A DNA stretch of 38,991 nucleotides from Sulfurimonas sp. CG01_land_8_20_14_3_00_36_23 (lineage in GTDB: Bacteria > Campylobacterota > Campylobacteria > Campylobacterales > Sulfurimonadaceae): positions 1 through 38,991 of the forward strand of contig PETN01000057.1 in NCBI GenBank assembly GCA_002781365.1. The letters run 5' to 3'. The first letter of the stretch is position 1. Each line of letters opens with the position of its first letter. Shown here one piece after another: positions 5,393 through 38,991 of this stretch. Under the pieces are notes generated by a model, which was given only the letters and a program-made list of their open reading frames with translations, did not search any database and had not been told where the DNA came from. Both the position numbers and the translations under genes were made by a program.

Positions 5393-6592
5393 ATGCTTCG
5401 GATTTTCTCTCTCTGTTTTGCATTTACAGTTATGGTGCAGGCGCAAACTTTAGAGACGATTATAGAGAACTCTTTGGCCTCTCATAACTCACTCAAAAGC
5501 ATAGAACAAAAACTAAGTGCTTTGGATGATTCCTTGGAACTTACGCAAAACTTTGCAAATCCAGAACTTACTTTCAGTGTCAGCGATATACAGTTTAGTG
5601 ACCCAATGAGTCGCTCTGTTGAACCGATGCAGAATGAGGGTATTGCATTTAAACAGAAGATTCCTTACTTTGGAAAACGAGGTGCGAATGCTTCGTATGT
5701 GAATGCTAAAAAAAGCGTTGTTTACAGTTCACTAGAGATGGCAAAAACTGCCTTGGTTCGAGAGATAAAACTTACCGCTTACACAATCTGGGAGTTTGAA
5801 AAAGAGAGAGCTATTCTTGAAGAGTCACTAGAACTCAATCGTAAAAATATAGAGTTAGGCACTATCTACACGCTTAGCGAAAGTTCTCTTCATATGCAGA
5901 CGATGGGGATGAAACTTTTTCATTCGCAGTTGAAGATAAAGCGTAGTCGTATTGTGAGTATCTTAGGTGGGTTGTACGCAAAACTCTCCTATCTCGCCTC
6001 TATGAAAATAGATTCACTAGAGATGGATGCCAAAGTAACCGTGCCAAAGAGTCTTGAGCGCTATCTTGAACTTCTCTCTCAAAACAGATCCTACCAATAC
6101 AAATCGGCGCAAGTAGGTGCAAAAAGTGCATTTGCAGAGTTAAAAGAGTATGACTCCAAAATAGACCCTGTGGTACAACTTGGCTATTTTCACAGAGCCT
6201 CTTTTGAGGATTATCTGAGTTTTAGTATTGGAGCCTCTCTTCCTATCTATGGAAATGAGAGCCTTCGCGTGCAACAAGCAAGAAAAGAGCTTTTAGAGGC
6301 AAAGTTCGCAAAGAGTGATTTGTATGAAAAATTAAAATCTGACCTGCATAAGAGCTACGCACAACTTATAAATAGTTACGAGATATATAAGATACTCACA
6401 ACAGAGTCACTTCCGCAAGTAGAGCATATGTTTGAGCTTGCGGGTGCAAATATAAATAATGGGAAAAATCTTCTTAGCTTAACGAGTATGTTGGAGAAAA
6501 AATTAGATTTACAAGAGCAAAAAATCAGTGCTATCGCTTCTTACAAAAGAGCGCAGACCGAGATAGATGCCTTAGTAGGAGAGATAAAATGA
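5393..6592 (+). CDS. TolC-family outer-membrane efflux protein (CusC/CzcC type)
   Basis: The outer-membrane channel of a tripartite heavy-metal efflux system. It has 399 residues with a signal peptide ending in VMVQAQ and then the long coiled-coil helices of the TolC family (LEEKL/LELNRKNIELG patterns). KQKIPYFGKRG near residue 90 is typical of the CzcC/CusC branch. It lies between the YtkA-like gene and the adaptor. Its stop codon overlaps the ATG of the adaptor, so production is coupled. Family membership is firm, and the metal type is taken from CusA downstream. Confidence 0.87.
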   Translation: MLRIFSLCFAFTVMVQAQTLETIIENSLASHNSLKSIEQKLSALDDSLELTQNFANPELTFSVSDIQFSDPMSRSVEPMQNEGIAFKQKIPYFGKRGANASYVNAKKSVVYSSLEMAKTALVREIKLTAYTIWEFEKERAILEESLELNRKNIELGTIYTLSESSLHMQTMGMKLFHSQLKIKRSRIVSILGGLYAKLSYLASMKIDSLEMDAKVTVPKSLERYLELLSQNRSYQYKSAQVGAKSAFAELKEYDSKIDPVVQLGYFHRASFEDYLSFSIGASLPIYGNESLRVQQARKELLEAKFAKSDLYEKLKSDLHKSYAQLINSYEIYKILTTESLPQVEHMFELAGANINNGKNLLSLTSMLEKKLDLQEQKISAIASYKRAQTEIDALVGEIK

Positions 6593-7578
6593 GATATTTG
6601 ATACTTTGGATGGCACTTCTTGTTTTTGCACAAGCGGCAACCGTGGAGCAACTCTTCTCAGTTGAGACGGTTGAGGTAAAAAAGGTGACTACTGCAAAGA
6701 TACAGAAAAACTATGGCTATGTGAGAGTAGATGAGAGTTTAAGATATAGCGTAGCGCCTCGTTTTAGTGGTTTTGTTGAGACTCTCTATGCAGACACGCT
6801 CTATAAATATGTCCATGAGGGTGATGTCTTAGCAAGCGTCTATTCGCCTGAGGTTTTGAGTGCAAAAGAGGAGTACTTAGCCTCTTTGAAATATAACAAA
6901 ATACATAAAAGTATAGAGATGTTAGAGAGTTCAAGAGAGAAACTTCTTTTACTCAATGTGAGTCCAAAAGAGATAAAGAGTATAGAAGAGAGTATGAAAG
7001 TCTCAAAACAGACAGATATCTCTGCGCCAAAAAGCGGTTATGTTTTTGCTAAAAATATCTCGCATCTTGATGCCTTCAAAGCGACACAAAAACTTTTTGA
7101 GATAGTGAGTTTGGAGCGTGTTTGGGTGGAGATGCAACTCTATCAAAAAGAGCTTGCAACACTCGATGCATTAGACTCCTTTAAAGTTAAAGTGATTGGA
7201 ATTGAGGACTCCTTTGAGGCGAAGAAGGAGATTCTTTACCCGATGCTAAACACAAAAGAGACAACACTTACTCTAAGACTTAGTGTAAATAACAAGAAAA
7301 ATCTTTTAAAGGCGGGCATGTATGTAACCATAGAATCTCATGCCAAAGCAGAGGAGTATTTAATGCTTCCTTCCACTGCGGTGCTTAGAAAAAATGGTGT
7401 TTTTTATGCTTTTGTAGCTGGAGAGTATGAGGGTGAGTATGAACCAAAAGAGATAGAGGTAAAAGTTTTAGATGCCAAGAGATACAGTGTTATAAGAGGT
7501 TTAAAAGAGGGCGATGTAGTTGTAAACAATGCACTCTTTTTAATGGATTCAGACGCTCAAATCAATGGTACCTATTAG
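6589..7578 (+). CDS. cusB: periplasmic adaptor of heavy-metal efflux (CusB type)
   Basis: Membrane-fusion protein that links the RND pump to the outer-membrane channel. It has 329 residues with a short signal peptide. Barrel-sandwich halves are VAPRFSGFVETLYADT and DISAPKSGYVFAKNI, with a helical hairpin between them and C-terminal beta-barrel segments (LRLSVNNKKNLLKAGMYVTI). It is shorter than E. coli CusB and shows no separate heavy-metal-binding domain or methionine cluster at the N-terminus. It overlaps the channel gene by 4 bases, and the pump gene starts 10 bases after its stop. Confidence 0.85.
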   Translation: MRYLILWMALLVFAQAATVEQLFSVETVEVKKVTTAKIQKNYGYVRVDESLRYSVAPRFSGFVETLYADTLYKYVHEGDVLASVYSPEVLSAKEEYLASLKYNKIHKSIEMLESSREKLLLLNVSPKEIKSIEESMKVSKQTDISAPKSGYVFAKNISHLDAFKATQKLFEIVSLERVWVEMQLYQKELATLDALDSFKVKVIGIEDSFEAKKEILYPMLNTKETTLTLRLSVNNKKNLLKAGMYVTIESHAKAEEYLMLPSTAVLRKNGVFYAFVAGEYEGEYEPKEIEVKVLDAKRYSVIRGLKEGDVVVNNALFLMDSDAQINGTY

Positions 7579-29182: not shown

Positions 29183-30379
29183 TTAGGCTGAGAGTTTCGC
29201 AATTGCTTGCATTATTGCGGTTTGTGTTTCTACATTTTCAAAGGAACCATGATGATGTAGTTGTTTAAACGCGCCATCCTCTTTGATAAACAGGCGAGAT
29301 GTTCTAAAACCAACATCCATAATTACTCCATCGATTGACATTGTGCCACGTTCTCGACCAACGGCTGAAAAACCATTTTCCAAATTAGTTATTTCAATAT
29401 CATAATACTCTACATCTATATCTATTTTTGAATTGAAAAGTGCATCATGCGAAGAAATAATATTCTCAAAAGCACGTGTAATCCCACCTAATGGACTTGT
29501 AAATGCTGCTCTCGTATCTCTGCTCCAGTTATTTTTCATTTTTGTAATATTCGCATTGTTGAGAGCATTGTAATACTCACTTAATGCTTTATACTCAGGG
29601 GATAACTGACTCATCTCTTTTCCATTTATAACAGATGTTTTAGTATATTTTGAATCACAAATCTTTTCTAGTTCATCCCATATTGTTGCTCGAATACTTA
29701 AAGAGTCTTTGACTGCTTCATCTATCTCACTATGTTGATTTTCAGTAGTATTCATACATAAAACTACTGTTGCATCATCACTATGTTCTTGGTCCCGCTC
29801 CCCGTGTCTCTCCCAAAAGTCCATATTGATGTTACTGCCAAAAGATTTTTTAATCCCATTTACTAAATATGGAAAGTTATTTGGAATAGTAAGCTCTCCT
29901 CCATAACCTAACCATGCGCAACCAATTGCAAAATGTTTATTTGCAACAGCATCATAGATTGTGTTGTTTAAAACTCTAATACTAGAGATAGTAGGTGTCT
30001 GTTCAAGCATAGCCTGCGTTATACCTATGGAGTCTAACATTTTTAAATACAAAATTGGATGTGACTCGTTTAAATTGTTGTGTCCCATCTCCTCATATAA
30101 ATTGTCCATAAGCATAAATCTACTTTTTATGTCTGGAGCGTTACCCATCAGTTTGCATATAGCCGCAGTGAAAGGCATGACAATCTTTCCAAATTGTTTT
30201 AGTACAAATATAACACCCTCTTGAGTATAACTACCTGATGCTAGTTTTTTTAAAAATACATGATTAAATACCTCATGATTTAACATTTTTTTTTCAAGCT
30301 CTTCTAAAAACTTTTTATTGTTTTTATAGTTGCCACTTGATAGTTCTTCTACACCGTATGGGGTTGTTAAATACTCCAT
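29183..30379 (-). CDS. haem-oxygenase-like diiron oxidase fused to an NTF2/SnoaL-like domain
   Basis: 398 residues from ATG 30379, chosen over ATG 30391 because GGAG stands 6 bases before it. Residues about 20-260 are of the iron-containing redox enzyme type (PqqC/CADD/HDO fold). Possible metal ligands are Glu97 and His107 (LYEEMGHNNLNESH), Glu162 (GYGGELTIP), and His192, Asp196 and His199 in ERHGERDQEH, the last three with the HxxxDxxH spacing of CADD. From about residue 285 a SnoaL/NTF2-like domain follows (FENIISSHDALFNSKIDIDV, and GFRTSRLF). Such oxidases act on small carboxylic or amino acids; the substrate here is unknown. It is flanked by two regulators. Confidence 0.75.
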   Translation of the reverse strand: MEYLTTPYGVEELSSGNYKNNKKFLEELEKKMLNHEVFNHVFLKKLASGSYTQEGVIFVLKQFGKIVMPFTAAICKLMGNAPDIKSRFMLMDNLYEEMGHNNLNESHPILYLKMLDSIGITQAMLEQTPTISSIRVLNNTIYDAVANKHFAIGCAWLGYGGELTIPNNFPYLVNGIKKSFGSNINMDFWERHGERDQEHSDDATVVLCMNTTENQHSEIDEAVKDSLSIRATIWDELEKICDSKYTKTSVINGKEMSQLSPEYKALSEYYNALNNANITKMKNNWSRDTRAAFTSPLGGITRAFENIISSHDALFNSKIDIDVEYYDIEITNLENGFSAVGRERGTMSIDGVIMDVGFRTSRLFIKEDGAFKQLHHHGSFENVETQTAIMQAIAKLSA

Positions 30380-30411
30380 TTCATTCTCCATTTATTTAAA
30401 ATTCAAAGCGG

Positions 30412-30440: not shown

Positions 30441-30494
30441 GAGTCATTATTGCCATATCTAATGCTGTAAATGACAAAAAAGGGGAAGATATAT

Positions 30495-32693: not shown

Positions 32694-33047
32694 CTTTCAC
32701 CTCTTTGTTTTGCATAATTGTATCTTAATTGATAAAAAAACAACCAATTGGTATTTTTAAATATTGAATTATTTTATTTAAGCATAGTAAATCACATATA
32801 GTAAGTATCTAGCATAAATAAATAGGCTTAAAGTATCAAGTGTTACAATATGTTATAGGTTTTATTATTTAATGTTAATTGGTATGTTAGTGATATTTAT
32901 GAAACTTTAATTCTGTTAGAATACTGAACAGTTTTTTTGTCTGATGTGTGTTTAAAGTAAATAGTATGTCTAGTTTTAATAATCAAAAAGAAATAGTGAA
33001 ACTTATTATAAAGGTTGTTATTTATAACTCAAGGAGATTCTTTTGAT
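32694..33047. other. 354-base AT-rich divergent gap before the modification operon
   Basis: Lies between the divergent lipoprotein gene and the operon that begins at 33048, so promoters for both are expected. On the minus strand TACAAT near 32715 may serve the lipoprotein; on the plus strand TAGAAT in TTCTGTTAGAATACTG near 32915 may serve the operon. CCAATTGG near 32744 is a short palindrome. No reading frame and no repeat of note. Confidence 0.5.
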
Positions 33048-33758
33048 ATGAACAAAAAACAAAGTTTTTTAGAGTTGCCATTTGAGTTTGATACAGCTAG
33101 ATTAATAGACGATTTAGCTGTAGTTTCATCTGATGATTGGGTTGATCACCAAAACAGAAGTGCTTATGATGGCTCATGGCATGTTACCTCTCTTACTTCA
33201 ACAAATGGCACTACGAAACAGATTGTGGCATTTGAAAATCAAACCTATTACGATACCCCACTCCTTAAAAAAACCACATACATCAAAAGTGTTCTAGATA
33301 CATTTCAGACAAAAATAGAGGCTGTTCGATTTATGAAATTAGGTGCAAATTCTACTATTAAAGAACATACTGACAGAGGCTCGTGTTTTGATGAAGGATA
33401 TGCTCGCATACATATCCCAATAACTACAAACAGTGATGTTGAGTTTATACTAAATGGCATAAAAACAAAAATGGATATAGGCAAATGTTACTACATAGAT
33501 GCAGATGCTCCACATAGTGTAGTTAACTCTGGAAATAGCGAAAGAGTTCATCTTTTAATCGACTGTCACATAAATAAGTGGATGAAAGATATATTTAAAA
33601 AAGCCGGATTTATTGAAAAAACATATAAGTATGATGACAAAAGTATCAATGATGCAAATGTAGATGAAATCATCTCCTCATTAAAAGCACTCAATACTGA
33701 AATATCATTAAATATGGCACAAAAACTTGAAGAAAAAAAGGATTATTATGTCTCTTGA
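33048..33758 (+). CDS. aspartyl/asparaginyl beta-hydroxylase family dioxygenase
   Basis: 236 residues, Fe(II)/2-oxoglutarate oxygenase of the Asp/Asn-hydroxylase family (also LpxO-like and Asp/Arg-hydroxylase-like members). The iron-binding triad is visible as HTD in IKEHTDRGSCFDEGYARIHI, then His in DADAPHSVVNSG, with the oxoglutarate Arg in SERVHLLID. No membrane segment, so hydroxylation of a soluble amino acid or peptide is more likely than lipid A. ATG 33048 is chosen over 33015; AAGGAG lies at 33031-33036. Its end overlaps the next gene by 11 bases. Confidence 0.85.
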   Translation: MNKKQSFLELPFEFDTARLIDDLAVVSSDDWVDHQNRSAYDGSWHVTSLTSTNGTTKQIVAFENQTYYDTPLLKKTTYIKSVLDTFQTKIEAVRFMKLGANSTIKEHTDRGSCFDEGYARIHIPITTNSDVEFILNGIKTKMDIGKCYYIDADAPHSVVNSGNSERVHLLIDCHINKWMKDIFKKAGFIEKTYKYDDKSINDANVDEIISSLKALNTEISLNMAQKLEEKKDYYVS

Positions 33759-34686
33759 TCAAATAATTTTTACAGAATGTAATGCAATGGTTAAATATGC
33801 ATTGGGCAAAGGTTTAAAAATACCGAATGAAATAGTTGAAAATATTCAAAAATGTGAACATGGTATCGTAGCAACTGTTGATTCTACCGAGCAAAAAGAC
33901 CCAAATATATCTGAGTGTATAGTTTTGTTAAATCAAGTACATTCTCAGCTTAGTAAAATCGTAGCACCTGCTAAACCAAAAACATTAGCGTTATTTGAAA
34001 AAGAAGAAAAAGATACTTTTGTAAAATTTTTAGGACCTGTTCCTTTGGTTCGTCGTATGATGCTGATTGCAATATTCTCATTAATTGCATTGGTTGGATT
34101 AAGTAGTTCTACTTACGTCAATGGAGATCCTAGCTCATTCGGATTAACCACTAACTCTGGCACATCCTTATTGGTCAATCAACTCTTTTTAATGAGTGCT
34201 GCATCTATTGGGACATCCTTTGCAGCTCTTTTTCAAGTAAATGACTATATTAAAAATGCAACATATGATTCAATGTACGAATCAACATATTGGGTACGTT
34301 TTGTTTTGGGATTATTAGCCGGAACTATGTTGGCTACACTGATTCCGATAGAAAGCCTTGGAGATGCAAATAGTACAACTAATGGTTTTGGTAGACCACT
34401 GTTATCTCTTGTAGGTGGATTTTCTGCATCGGTAGTATTTCGTGTACTGACAAGATTGACTACAGCTATTGAGTCGGTTTTTCAAGGTGATGTTAAAGAG
34501 GTCCTCGCATCTCAAGAAATCACAAACAATATGAAGCTTGAACAGCAAAATATTCAAAATAAACTACAGCTTCTCAATCAGCTAAAGACCCTTCAAAGCA
34601 GTATGAACGCAGGCAGTGATTCAAAAGCTCTCATCGATGAGCTAAATCAGATACAAAACAGCTTATTAGATAACGATGGAAAATAA
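33748..34686 (+). CDS. membrane protein of unknown function with C-terminal coiled coil
   Basis: 312 residues. A soluble N-terminal part (about 1-100) is followed by hydrophobic segments at MMLIAIFSLIALVGL, LFLMSAASIGTSFAALFQV, FVLGLLAGTMLATLI and LLSLVGGFSASVVFRVL. A glutamine-rich coiled coil (NKLQLLNQLKTLQ) closes the protein. No family recognised. AAAGGATTATT precedes ATG 33748, inside the hydroxylase gene. Its place inside the operon suggests anchoring, sensing or export for the modification enzymes; this is only inferred. Confidence 0.7.
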   Translation: MSLDQIIFTECNAMVKYALGKGLKIPNEIVENIQKCEHGIVATVDSTEQKDPNISECIVLLNQVHSQLSKIVAPAKPKTLALFEKEEKDTFVKFLGPVPLVRRMMLIAIFSLIALVGLSSSTYVNGDPSSFGLTTNSGTSLLVNQLFLMSAASIGTSFAALFQVNDYIKNATYDSMYESTYWVRFVLGLLAGTMLATLIPIESLGDANSTTNGFGRPLLSLVGGFSASVVFRVLTRLTTAIESVFQGDVKEVLASQEITNNMKLEQQNIQNKLQLLNQLKTLQSSMNAGSDSKALIDELNQIQNSLLDNDGK

Positions 34687-35617
34687 TCGAATGTCTATAT
34701 TTAGCTTAAGCCAACAACAAAAAGATGAATACTTTACCAAAGGCTACACATCAATAAAGAATGGAGTATCGCCAGAACTCTTAAAACGTCTTCAAAATAT
34801 GGCTGATAACTTTGAAAAAAACATTATGAATGCTTATAAAAATAATAAAGAGACTCTTGGAGCATGTATAGCAGAATCTAAAAATACTCAACATCTTATC
34901 CGTTATAATGATATTCATGGAGTGGATTGGGATACTACGCTTGATCTGTTAGCATCTCCAGCAATGATGGCAATTTTTAGAGATATTTGTGGAAAAAATG
35001 CTGTCCCATTACAAGTAGATCTACTTTATAAACAGCCTCTATCTGACTCCATTGTACTTTGGCATCAAGATGCACCACATAGTAGAGCATACCCTTATAT
35101 AAATGTTGGGATATATCTTGATGATTCAAATAGAGAAGATGGATGTTTACGTTATGTTCCAAATACACAGCATGAAAAACAAGATATAGAAAAATTGTCA
35201 CAAAAGTTTGGCTGGGATATTCCAAACTCTGTAGAATTCCCTGCGAAAGCAGGTGATATTAATCTCCATGACATGATGATTTTACATGGCTCAAAACCTA
35301 AAAAACACTCAAATGTAAGACGGACTATTTATGTTGAAATTCGCCCATATGATGGGATTATTGGTGATGATTCTCAATCTTCTGAGTGGGCAGAGTTACG
35401 TCGTAGATTTATGGGACTTGTTCTAAGACGAGCTAATCCATCAGATTGGCCACAAGAGTGGATGTCTGAGTATCCAACTGATCTTAAAAGTGACAATGAG
35501 GAGATAAAAACTATTTTACAAATGTGGGAGCCGCCAGTTGGAGCAAATTATGCGGTATTTCCAGTAATTCATGAAAACTATCCAGTACCTGCAGATATGA
35601 GGATTTCCAGTGAGTAA
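34676..35617 (+). CDS. PhyH-family Fe(II)/2-oxoglutarate dioxygenase, first copy
   Basis: 313 residues (or 308 from ATG 34691; both starts have weak ribosome sites). The phytanoyl-CoA dioxygenase fold is shown by the HxD of VLWHQDAPHS, GDINLHDMMILHGSKPKKHS with the distal His, and Arg in RRTIYVEIRP. Family members hydroxylate small molecules, e.g. ectoine or lipids. It overlaps the genes on both sides, so it is part of one operon. The substrate is unknown. Confidence 0.85.
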   Translation: MENNRMSIFSLSQQQKDEYFTKGYTSIKNGVSPELLKRLQNMADNFEKNIMNAYKNNKETLGACIAESKNTQHLIRYNDIHGVDWDTTLDLLASPAMMAIFRDICGKNAVPLQVDLLYKQPLSDSIVLWHQDAPHSRAYPYINVGIYLDDSNREDGCLRYVPNTQHEKQDIEKLSQKFGWDIPNSVEFPAKAGDINLHDMMILHGSKPKKHSNVRRTIYVEIRPYDGIIGDDSQSSEWAELRRRFMGLVLRRANPSDWPQEWMSEYPTDLKSDNEEIKTILQMWEPPVGANYAVFPVIHENYPVPADMRISSE

Positions 35618-36611
35618 TGAACTTTTTCAGAGTGACTACAAAGGCAAACTTGGCATCGCACATCTTCCAAGAGTTTACTCAAAAATAAAACAAGACCTTC
35701 ATGGGAAAAGAAAAAAGATTGATAAAAATGAGTGGACGCAAGATTTGATAGTGTTAGATACTCTCAACTTAGGTACTTATGAGCCTTTAGAATTTATATG
35801 TAGCACGAATGCTTCTTTAGAAGAGTTTGAAAATTGGATATTAGAAAAAAATGGTGGCATGATTGAAAAGAGTGTTATTGACAAAATTAACCGAGCTATT
35901 TTATCTGATGTAAGTGAAGATTTTACTCCAATAAAAACAGTTTTAACAGAGCATGATTTAGAGTTTTTTGATGCATATGGCTATGTGATTGTTAAAAATG
36001 CCATTAGCAAAGAAGATTGTCAAAATACTATTAGTGCTATAGAGGAGTTTATAGGCTTGGATTTGAGTATTCCAGCTAATTGGTATAAGATAAATAGTGG
36101 ATTCTGGATAAAGATGTACCATCATGTTGCGCTTAAACAAAACAGAGAAAGTGAAAAAATAAAAATTGCATATCAACAACTTCTACACTCTAGTAACCTT
36201 TTTAACTCTCATGATAGAGTAAGCATAAATCCTCCTGAAACAGACTCTTTTAAGTATAGAGGTTCAAAGCTACATTGGGACGTAAGCTTGGATACTCCTA
36301 TGCATTTTGGTTTACAAGGCTTGTTATATCTAACAGATGTAAAAGAGAATGGCGGTGCTTTTTCTTGTGTACCTGGGTTTCATAAAAAAATAGACCTTTG
36401 GTTAGAACAATTTGAAGATAAATCACAAGCTCGTGATTTTGATCTGCATAGCTTAGGTGTTAAACACATTAGTGCCAATGCAGGTGATTTTATTATTTGG
36501 GATGACAGATTACCTCACGGTGCAACACCAAATAGAGATACTACCCCAAGAATCGTGCAATATATAAATTTCTATTCACCTAATAAAAACTACAGTGATA
36601 ACTGGAAATAA
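35610..36611 (+). CDS. PhyH-family Fe(II)/2-oxoglutarate dioxygenase, second copy
   Basis: 333 residues, GTG start at 35610 with GAGGA upstream, overlapping the first PhyH gene by 8 bases. After about 105 N-terminal residues with no match, the PhyH domain begins (FFDAYGYVIVKNAISKEDCQ). Iron ligands are HxD in SKLHWDVSLD and His in WDDRLPHGATPN, with Arg in PRIVQYINF. It is clearly different in sequence from the first copy, so the two should act at different steps or sites. Confidence 0.85.
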   Translation: MSNELFQSDYKGKLGIAHLPRVYSKIKQDLHGKRKKIDKNEWTQDLIVLDTLNLGTYEPLEFICSTNASLEEFENWILEKNGGMIEKSVIDKINRAILSDVSEDFTPIKTVLTEHDLEFFDAYGYVIVKNAISKEDCQNTISAIEEFIGLDLSIPANWYKINSGFWIKMYHHVALKQNRESEKIKIAYQQLLHSSNLFNSHDRVSINPPETDSFKYRGSKLHWDVSLDTPMHFGLQGLLYLTDVKENGGAFSCVPGFHKKIDLWLEQFEDKSQARDFDLHSLGVKHISANAGDFIIWDDRLPHGATPNRDTTPRIVQYINFYSPNKNYSDNWK

Positions 36612-36615
36612 AAAA

Positions 36616-38817
36616 ATGGAACATAAACCTATTTATATTCTTGGAACAAACCTATCTCATGATGGTAGCAGTTGTCTTTTAAAAGATGGTGAAATTGTTG
36701 CTGCTATAGAAAAAGAGCGAATTACAAGAGTAAAACATGATGGGGGAAATGATTTTTCAACTGTTAAGTATTGTCTTGAAAAGGAAGGAATAACTATAGA
36801 AGATATCTCTTTAATAGTTCAAAATGCAAATTTCGAAAAAGATGAAATAGAGATAGATAGATATAAAGGAGATAGGTTTTTTAAAAAAGATATCAAAGTT
36901 CCCATTGTAACTATCTCACACCATTTAGCCCATGCTTATAGTGCTCTAGGTAGTTCCAATTTTGAAAGTTGCAATGTCGTAGTTATCGATGGCTGTGGAA
37001 GTCCTTTTGCACAATGTGATGATGTTGAATGTGAAACTTTACCAACCAAAGAGCATATCTTGCATACGCCAGAAAACTTTTGGTGTGAAAAAATGAGTAT
37101 CTATAAATATGATAGTAACAATGGATTAAAACCACAAATAAAAGAGTTTTCTGAGTTTAGTCACACAAGAAGAGAAGAGAACTTTTCTATGCCGACAACC
37201 ATACACTCAATTGGCGGTGTTTATCAACTTGTGAGCAACTACTGTTTTGGAAATATGGATGATGTAGGAAAACTCATGGGCTTAGCTCCCTATGGTAGGG
37301 TAAACCAATTTAATGAAAAGATATTTGAACTTAAAGAAGGAAGAGTTTTTAACGATTTTAGTTGGCAGAGATTTTTAGATAAGCCTTTTAGCTCTTATGA
37401 TAATTTTAAAAATGATTTTCAGCACTATGCAGATATAGCATATTGTGTACAAGATGAGACCGAAAAAGCATTGGTCTATACTTTTAAATATCTTGAAAAA
37501 AAGTTTCCAAATGAGAACTGGGCATATGCTGGCGGTGTAGGACTAAATGCTGTGGCAAATGCAAAGATTCTATCAAAAACAGATATCAAAAATCTATATA
37601 TTCAGCCAGCTGCAGGAGATAATGGTATAGCTTTAGGATGTGCTTTTTATGGATGGAGAAAGATTTTAAAACAGCCCTTTAAGAAACATGATGGAAGTAG
37701 TAATTTTGGTAAAAAATATATAAAGCAAGATATTTATGAAGATGTTCGATTACAGATAGTTCAAGTACAAAACTATATTGAAAAAACGGCAGAACTTCTA
37801 TCTCAAGGAAAAATTATCGCTTGGTTTGACAATGGAAGCGAATTTGGACCAAGAGCTTTAGGATATAGAAGCATCTTAGCAGATCCTACAAAAAAAGGTG
37901 TAAAAGATTTTATCAATAAAGAGATAAAAAAAAGAGAAGATTTTAGACCCTTCGCACCTGCTATTATCAAAGAGGAAGTTAGCAAATACTTTAAAAATGA
38001 TATGGAGAGTCCCTATATGATTTTAGTCAATCCTATGAGAGAAGAGTATCAAGAGCTTTTGTCAAATGTAGTTCATAAAGATGGAACATCAAGAGTACAA
38101 ACTGTTGAGAGTCATACAAACCCCAATTTTTACTCTCTTTTAAAAAGTTTTGGAGAAAAAAACTCAATGCCTATATTACTAAATACCTCTTTCAATAAAA
38201 AAGGGATGCCTATTGTAGAAACTCTAAAAGAAGCAGTTGCATTTTTCAAAGAGGTTCCCATTGATTATCTTGTCTTGGATGGAGCTATTTTTTCCAAAAT
38301 AGGGATGAAAATGAATGATTTAAACTTTAACGACAAGGTAACACAAAAAATAGTTGATTTTATTTTACAAATAGGTCTGCCTGTTTTTAAAGAGACAATC
38401 AAAGAAGAGACTTTTTTACCTGGAGTTCTTGTTAGAAATGGTGGACTGGCTATAGATGAAGAGAGATTGCTTTATCCGGGGGACTTACTTCATGAAGCAG
38501 GACATTTAGCAACTTTAACACCACAAAAAAGAGTAGAAGTTTATAACGATGTAAGTAAAAATGCTGGGGATGAGTTAGTAACACTAGCATGGTCTTATGC
38601 TGCTGCTAAATACCTTAATCTTGAGCTCAATATTTTATTTCATGACAACGGTTATAAAGGTGATTCTTCATGGTTAGTTGAACACTATAGAAACGGTGGG
38701 GAAATGGGTTTACCTCTTTTGGAATGGATGGGGTTGTCTTATGGTTATAAGCGAGCAGAAAAAGAAAAAGTTCAATCATTTCCTGCAATGCAAAAATGGT
38801 TAAGAGATGTAATATGA
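36616..38817 (+). CDS. NodU-type O-carbamoyltransferase with extra C-terminal HExxH domain
   Basis: 733 residues from ATG 36616, 4 bases after the second PhyH gene. The N-terminal Kae1-like half has ILGTNLSHDGSSCLLKDGEI, the metal site SHHLAHAYSAL, KLMGLAPYGR and AGGVGLNAVANAKI. The carbamoyltransferase C-terminal half has FGPRALGYRSILADPTKKG, RPFAPAI and LLNTSFNKKGMPI. Such enzymes move carbamoyl from carbamoyl phosphate to a hydroxyl. The family normally ends near residue 565. Here about 170 further residues carry VRNGGLAIDEERLLYPGDLL, HEAGH (His626-His630) and FHDNGYKGDSSWL, a domain also known to me as a stand-alone unknown protein. The fusion is unusual. Confidence 0.85.
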   Translation: MEHKPIYILGTNLSHDGSSCLLKDGEIVAAIEKERITRVKHDGGNDFSTVKYCLEKEGITIEDISLIVQNANFEKDEIEIDRYKGDRFFKKDIKVPIVTISHHLAHAYSALGSSNFESCNVVVIDGCGSPFAQCDDVECETLPTKEHILHTPENFWCEKMSIYKYDSNNGLKPQIKEFSEFSHTRREENFSMPTTIHSIGGVYQLVSNYCFGNMDDVGKLMGLAPYGRVNQFNEKIFELKEGRVFNDFSWQRFLDKPFSSYDNFKNDFQHYADIAYCVQDETEKALVYTFKYLEKKFPNENWAYAGGVGLNAVANAKILSKTDIKNLYIQPAAGDNGIALGCAFYGWRKILKQPFKKHDGSSNFGKKYIKQDIYEDVRLQIVQVQNYIEKTAELLSQGKIIAWFDNGSEFGPRALGYRSILADPTKKGVKDFINKEIKKREDFRPFAPAIIKEEVSKYFKNDMESPYMILVNPMREEYQELLSNVVHKDGTSRVQTVESHTNPNFYSLLKSFGEKNSMPILLNTSFNKKGMPIVETLKEAVAFFKEVPIDYLVLDGAIFSKIGMKMNDLNFNDKVTQKIVDFILQIGLPVFKETIKEETFLPGVLVRNGGLAIDEERLLYPGDLLHEAGHLATLTPQKRVEVYNDVSKNAGDELVTLAWSYAAAKYLNLELNILFHDNGYKGDSSWLVEHYRNGGEMGLPLLEWMGLSYGYKRAEKEKVQSFPAMQKWLRDVI

Positions 38818-38991
38818 AAGTATCACTTGAGGAAAAAATAAAAAATGTAAGTGTTAAACCTCAAATAGATGCACATCAAAGCTTTTTATTATCATTATAT
38901 GGATCAACGAGAGAGGATGAACTTACTATGAGTTCATTAAATGAATTAGAAAAAAGAGCCTTTATAAAACAGCAATTTAGATTAAAAGAGG
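38814..38991 (+). CDS. GNAT-family N-acetyltransferase, 5' part
   Basis: Starts at ATG 38814 inside the stop of the carbamoyltransferase gene (ATGA) and runs off the window. The visible 59 residues include HQSFLLSLYGSTREDEL and RAFIKQQFRLKE, the typical N-terminus of a GNAT group with FLxxLYxSTRxxEL and QF near residue 55. Acetyl transfer to an amino group is expected. The acetyl-CoA motif lies outside the window, so the call rests on the N-terminus only. Confidence 0.6.
   Translation, partial: MKVSLEEKIKNVSVKPQIDAHQSFLLSLYGSTREDELTMSSLNELEKRAFIKQQFRLKE

Follow-up and report, generated by a model that had tools for sequence, protein, structure and literature searches.

The window, by which we mean the whole analysed stretch of 38,991 nucleotides, ends in six genes on the same strand, each overlapping its neighbour or lying no more than 4 bases from it. 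They begin about 12 kb past the ribosomal-protein/SecY operon of the window, and their parts are as follows.

33048-33758, + strand: AspH, an Asp_Arg_Hydrox-family Fe(II)/2OG oxygenase with an ATG start (PF05118, 9e-16)
33748-34686, + strand: membrane protein of ~312 aa, an open reading frame
34676-35617, + strand: PhyA, a PhyH-family Fe(II)/2OG oxygenase (PF05721, 4.3e-20)
35610-36611, + strand: PhyB, a second PhyH-family oxygenase with a GTG start (PF05721, 1.7e-11 over residues 120-315)
36616-38295, + strand: carbamoyltransferase (CT), with the NodU/TobZ-type O-carbamoyltransferase domains Carbam_trans_N/_C (PF02543, 3.8e-36; PF16861, 9.9e-65)
38296-38817, + strand: HExxH domain, the C-terminal part of the CT fusion (boundary approximate)
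38814-38991, + strand: GNAT acetyltransferase, N-terminal 59 residues, cut by an assembly gap (C-terminal part at 95-292 of contig C40, see below)

A ribosome-binding site (AAGGAG, ~33031-33036) stands upstream of the AspH ATG. The AspH and membrane protein genes overlap by 11 bases, the membrane protein/PhyA and PhyA/PhyB gene pairs each overlap as well, and the CT fusion (36616-38817) overlaps the GNAT gene (from 38814) at ATGA. A 4-base gap separates PhyB from the CT ATG, and an alternative GTG at 36595 would give an overlap here too. The Pfam matches of the operon genes are far above chance level. The open reading frames bear out an earlier note on this DNA, which had described six genes overlapping or spaced by at most 4 bases. 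Its three Fe(II)/2-oxoglutarate oxygenases are upheld by the PF05118 match and the two PF05721 matches with HxD...H sites, its NodU-type carbamoyltransferase by PF02543, PF16861 and alignment with TobZ and GdmN, and its acetyltransferase start by matches, at E 4e-10, of the 59 residues to complete GNATs that belong to a single subfamily. Further left in the window, a - strand gene (29183-30391) fuses a heme-oxygenase-like (PF14518) domain to a SnoaL-like domain and is divergent from a DJ-1/PfpI-AraC regulator at 30471.

The window breaks off within the GNAT gene since its contig, C68 (one of the 102 pieces of a 2.43 Mb genome), gives way to a run of Ns just past 38991; the contig itself ends at 39219. 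In Ruegeria and Pontibrevibacter, the GNATs that the fragment matches adjoin a trio of 'tail fiber' genes, and in Pseudoalteromonas AspH adjoins genes for Collar-domain (PF07484) proteins, here called collars. We therefore searched the organism's own genome for collars and found three, all on a single contig, C40, which opens with the C-terminal portion of a GNAT. Across the genome, a GNAT subfamily profile matches C68 at 38844-38987 (model 14-60) and C40 at 95-292 (model 98-163); its two remaining matches, scored over model 83-155, are different GNATs. Both features of the subfamily are found, on two contigs: the N-terminal LY-x-STR-x-DEL region on one and the C-terminal acetyl-CoA binding half on the other, with ~34 middle residues falling in the gap. 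These complementary pieces, together with the parallel loci described below, lead us to infer that C40 very probably follows C68. Short non-fitting stretches at the ends of both contigs count against the join. On C68, the ~170 bases after the Ns (39051-39219; L002 4051-4220) hold the end of an unrelated frame (...LVNNEISTALILFSRLEKEYGINENQLKLGTWDDWIN...), match nothing elsewhere in the genome and show no GNAT resemblance; they may be a mis-scaffolded end.

On C40 the GNAT end is followed by the three collars, a TPR-arginine methyltransferase, a subtilase, a TIGR03032 protein, a RhuM-like protein and an adhesin, and from the methyltransferase through the adhesin each gene overlaps the next. The collars end in FPSQN, FPSRN and FPSRN, and their N-termini display by eye no obvious signal peptide. 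The C-terminal half of the TPR protein is the arginine methyltransferase (E 5e-15 to PRMT7), and the TIGR03032/DUF4915 protein matches its family at 1e-108. The adhesin, cut by the contig end, carries an apparent signal peptide and repeats and is Ig/cadherin-like; its first 486 residues have no Pfam match, and 245 of its residues are 58% identical to an adhesin next to a GNAT-collar pair in a genome of the same order (G223). C40 thus holds collar ends of the [FY]P-x-R(x) type by a large secreted repeat protein, the hallmark of what we call collar-adhesin loci, and C68 is linked to it via the split GNAT and the parallels. The earlier note had proposed extending the sequence to the right and had suggested that the scaffold might be encoded there; the continuation, with its three collars, large secreted adhesin and further enzymes, supports this. 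As in the window, where the note had seen no NRPS, PKS or glycosyltransferase, none is present among the C40 genes. No scaffold enzyme or precursor peptide was found among the operon genes on C68 and C40, a search that very short precursor genes could escape.

The collar proteins match phage tail families, CT matches the phage carbamoyltransferase family phrog_1601 (5.6e-123) and the RhuM-like protein matches PDC-S05, all of which would suit a prophage remnant or a phage-defence island whose collars are tail parts. We hold this to be very improbable, and the gene content largely refutes it: on C40 and in the operon we identified no other gene for phage structure, packaging or lysis, nor any further tail, head or packaging gene of a prophage or contractile tail system by the collars. 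Moreover, the collar ends are of the non-phage [FY]P-x-R type, and the neighbours are adhesins, not tail genes. The RhuM/Bro-N-like protein itself (C40 (L017) 5900-6760), encoded between TIGR03032 and the adhesin, matches the candidate defence family PDC-S05 at 1.6e-102.

Comparable loci occur in unrelated genomes. In G040, of the same order and another family, AspH, methyltransferase, formyltransferase, collar and a 1903-aa Ig/cadherin protein abut in this order on one strand, the AspH being an orthologue (45% identical) that heads the operon. The Pseudoalteromonas piscicida group (L011/L022) likewise has an AspH orthologue at the head, followed by methyltransferase, GNAT, DUF6916, three collars, subtilase and adhesin; its subtilase and that of C40 are 37.5% identical over 304 residues. 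This locus resembles ours in uniting AspH, GNAT, three collars, subtilase and adhesin in one neighbourhood, but its operon lacks the CT fusion and the PhyH pair and has an extra DUF6916, and its methyltransferase, like that of G040, bears a weak resemblance to arginine methyltransferases. Pseudoalteromonas CF6-2 has methyltransferase, formyltransferase, collar and giant Ig protein genes, with a stand-alone HExxH gene adjacent and divergent. In the gammaproteobacterium G579 a NodU-type CT, HprK-like, sulfotransferase, AsnB (asparagine-synthase-like), GNAT and collar genes lie together, and in G692 AsnB, HprK-like, sulfotransferase and AspH-sulfotransferase fusion genes lie by a collar. The loci on the Ruegeria TM1040 megaplasmid and a Pontibrevibacter plasmid share with ours three collars with the same C-terminal motif, the same GNAT subfamily and an adjoining giant repeat (Ig-like) protein, but have neither oxygenases nor carbamoyltransferase, and their collars are annotated merely as 'tail fiber protein'.

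Of the 23 collar loci ending in [FY]P-x-R or similar, 9 have a member of the GNAT subfamily within 6 kb, as against none of the 14 with other, mostly phage-type, C-termini (hypergeometric estimate ~0.007), the loci having been drawn by PF07484 alone in two surveys in which our own genome and the survey centre were left out and part of the matches were fetched. Most surveyed collar loci have neither AspH nor CT. No other collar operon found contains a relative of PhyA, PhyB, the membrane protein or the CT-HExxH fusion, but a NodU-type CT without the HExxH fusion does occur in another collar locus.

The AspH iron site (H107/D109/H156) is invariant in an alignment of AspH relatives. An alignment of four AspH sequences gave no stretch usable for scanning, and a scan with a two-sequence alignment matched in Pseudoalteromonas alone. 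AspH is rare, being present in 12 of 321 gammaproteobacteria. It stands at the head of collar loci, or next to them, in four separate lineages among those examined, one of which is a biased draw, as it was the centre of the collar survey itself. AspH-sulfotransferase fusions in other gammaproteobacteria lie mostly away from collar genes, so the presence of AspH is not by itself a predictor of collar loci. On a Diaphorobacter plasmid (L019 12001-14987), such a fusion is followed by TIGR03032 and is divergent from an IPTL-CTERM protein; here the AspH/TIGR03032 pairing adjoins a large sorted protein, with no collar gene.

The HxD and distal H of PhyA align with three solved oxygenases. A full-length relative, 42% identical, is encoded ~10.5 kb from the Pseudoalteromonas AspH-collar operon, and none was found in the other 59 genomes nearest in kinship. 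PhyB shows by eye the iron motif HWD ... H and ~100 additional N-terminal residues, and has no PDB relative at E 0.1. Relatives of the membrane protein occur in Burkholderia and Paracoccus, and around them there are none of the queried operon genes and no collar genes; a single-sequence structure prediction of this protein was of poor quality.

TobZ, GdmN and further O-carbamoyltransferases can be aligned with CT over its full length, and the alignment takes in the HD close to the N-terminus and HHLAHA. With both Carbam_trans domains, the N-terminal HD and the HHxAHA metal motif, it is a NodU/TobZ-type O-carbamoyltransferase, predicted to use carbamoyl phosphate and ATP for carbamoyl transfer to an acceptor hydroxyl or amine. 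It shares with NodU, TobZ and GdmN the full Kae1-like and YrdC-like halves and the conserved motifs, but differs from them in the HExxH fusion and in a genomic setting that is not one of Nod-factor or antibiotic synthesis. A scan of 84,980 species genomes with CT alone returned no relative. The last ~170 residues of the fusion form a separate conserved domain with an invariant LHEAGH and no Pfam match; its structure prediction was of poor quality. This domain is encoded stand-alone in Pseudoalteromonas and Comamonas and is absent from all other of the 397 genomes in our phylum sample. This absence, together with the lack of PhyA matches in the 59 nearest genomes, suggests that the enzyme set was probably acquired horizontally. 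Saxitoxin-like clusters combine a NodU-type CT with oxygenases and a GNAT; we set this likeness aside, since the oxygenases and GNAT here are of other families and no SxtA-type gene was identified. On a Piscinibacter plasmid (L008 8346-15432), a 1112-aa carbamoyltransferase protein adjoins TfuA-like, DUF6445, GNAT and DUF692 genes, a set resembling a peptide-modification cluster with a NodU-type carbamoyltransferase.

Several of these kinships would fit enzymes that produce or tailor a free small molecule (an amine, a short peptide or a modified amino acid), with the collar and adhesin genes co-transcribed and the substrate unrelated to them. The closest solved structure to AspH is the free L-proline cis-4-hydroxylase (PDB 4p7w, 2.4e-10), with a further weak match to a non-proteinogenic amino acid hydroxylase model; for PhyA there is a match to EvdO1, a protein of everninomicin biosynthesis; and TobZ and GdmN, which CT matches, are antibiotic O-carbamoyltransferases. 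Neither the operon of the window nor C40 encodes a scaffold-making enzyme, however, and AspH, GNAT and methyltransferase recur by collar and adhesin genes in unrelated genomes, which makes this explanation unlikely. Decoration of sugars, either on a surface glycan or on a glycan attached to the adhesin, with carbamoyl, acetyl and formyl groups placed as NodU does on Nod factors, appears to us decidedly unlikely. NodU-type CTs, sugar N-formyltransferases and GNATs often act on sugars, and two of the related loci have sulfotransferases; yet among the operon genes we identified neither a glycosyltransferase nor a sugar-nucleotide enzyme, and the set includes a protein arginine methyltransferase.

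What is common to nearly all AspH or methyltransferase loci is the collar proteins and a large secreted protein, whereas the modifying enzymes vary from locus to locus. This pattern is most simply explained if one of these proteins is the substrate of the enzymes. We consider it somewhat better than an even bet that the six genes are the left half of a ~14-gene operon for a cell-surface protein system and its decorating enzymes, in the order AspH, membrane protein, PhyA, PhyB, CT-HExxH, GNAT, three collars, TPR-arginine methyltransferase, subtilase, TIGR03032, RhuM-like and adhesin. Counting against this reading are the ill-fitting contig ends, the missing GNAT middle, the weak arginine-methyltransferase likeness in Pseudoalteromonas and G040, the lack of PhyA, PhyB, membrane protein and CT-HExxH relatives in the other collar operons, the scarcity of AspH and CT at collar loci in general, and the collar N-termini without an obvious signal peptide. 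The gene content, the split GNAT and the recurrence of AspH, GNAT, methyltransferase, formyl- or carbamoyl-transferase and subtilase by collar and adhesin genes are seen directly; from these we infer a protein substrate, its identity and the chemistry of each step. The targets of AspH, PhyA and PhyB would be residues of the collar proteins or of the adhesin, whose hydroxylation could create acceptors for CT; CT would carbamoylate a hydroxyl (or an amine), GNAT would acetylate an amine, the methyltransferase would methylate an arginine and the subtilase would trim or process an exported protein. The C-terminal arginine of the collars is present with or without a methyltransferase gene and so is not a demonstrated methylation target. 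The scaffold is most likely a protein, decoration of a cell-surface protein being favoured over a free small molecule, and the multi-step tailoring by hydroxylation, carbamoylation and acetylation that the earlier note had put forward is plausible.

All parts belong to known families, and the function is a prediction. In the open-access library searched we found no description of collar-adhesin loci with modifying enzymes and nothing relevant on collar-domain clusters, TIGR03032, MdpB or bacterial PRMT; within that library, the note's statement of knowing no described pathway of such make-up stands. Throughout the bacteria searched, Collar-domain 'tail fiber' genes turn up repeatedly outside phages, annotated merely as phage parts, and our comparison associates them with large adhesins, a single GNAT subfamily and varying modifying enzymes. 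It also provides several orphan oxygenases, the NodU-type carbamoyltransferases and TIGR03032 with a candidate substrate. We tentatively suggest that phage-tail-derived collars or the adjoining adhesin may be multiply modified by an interchangeable enzyme cassette, through hydroxylation, carbamoylation, acetylation and arginine methylation, and in related loci formylation or sulfation. If so, this would be a protein modification system of a previously undescribed kind, unusually rich for a bacterial cell surface, and would include, to our knowledge, the first O-carbamoylated hydroxy-residue in a surface protein.

The adhesins of related loci bear cadherin-like, Calx-beta and Big_9 repeats, as does BapP of Pseudoalteromonas tunicata, a calcium-dependent adhesin type with cadherin-like/Calx-beta and BIg_9 repeats (PMC12153261). 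The main text of the BapP paper makes no mention of collar or tail-fibre genes (PMC12153261). The C40 adhesin, truncated at the contig end, differs from BapP in having no Pfam match over its first 486 residues. In close relatives of the present organism (L075 6514-14039 and L076 9614-13676) a single collar gene lies by large proteins, instead of a GNAT-type locus; in L075 a large protein stands on either side of the collar gene, the first with a TPS secretion domain.
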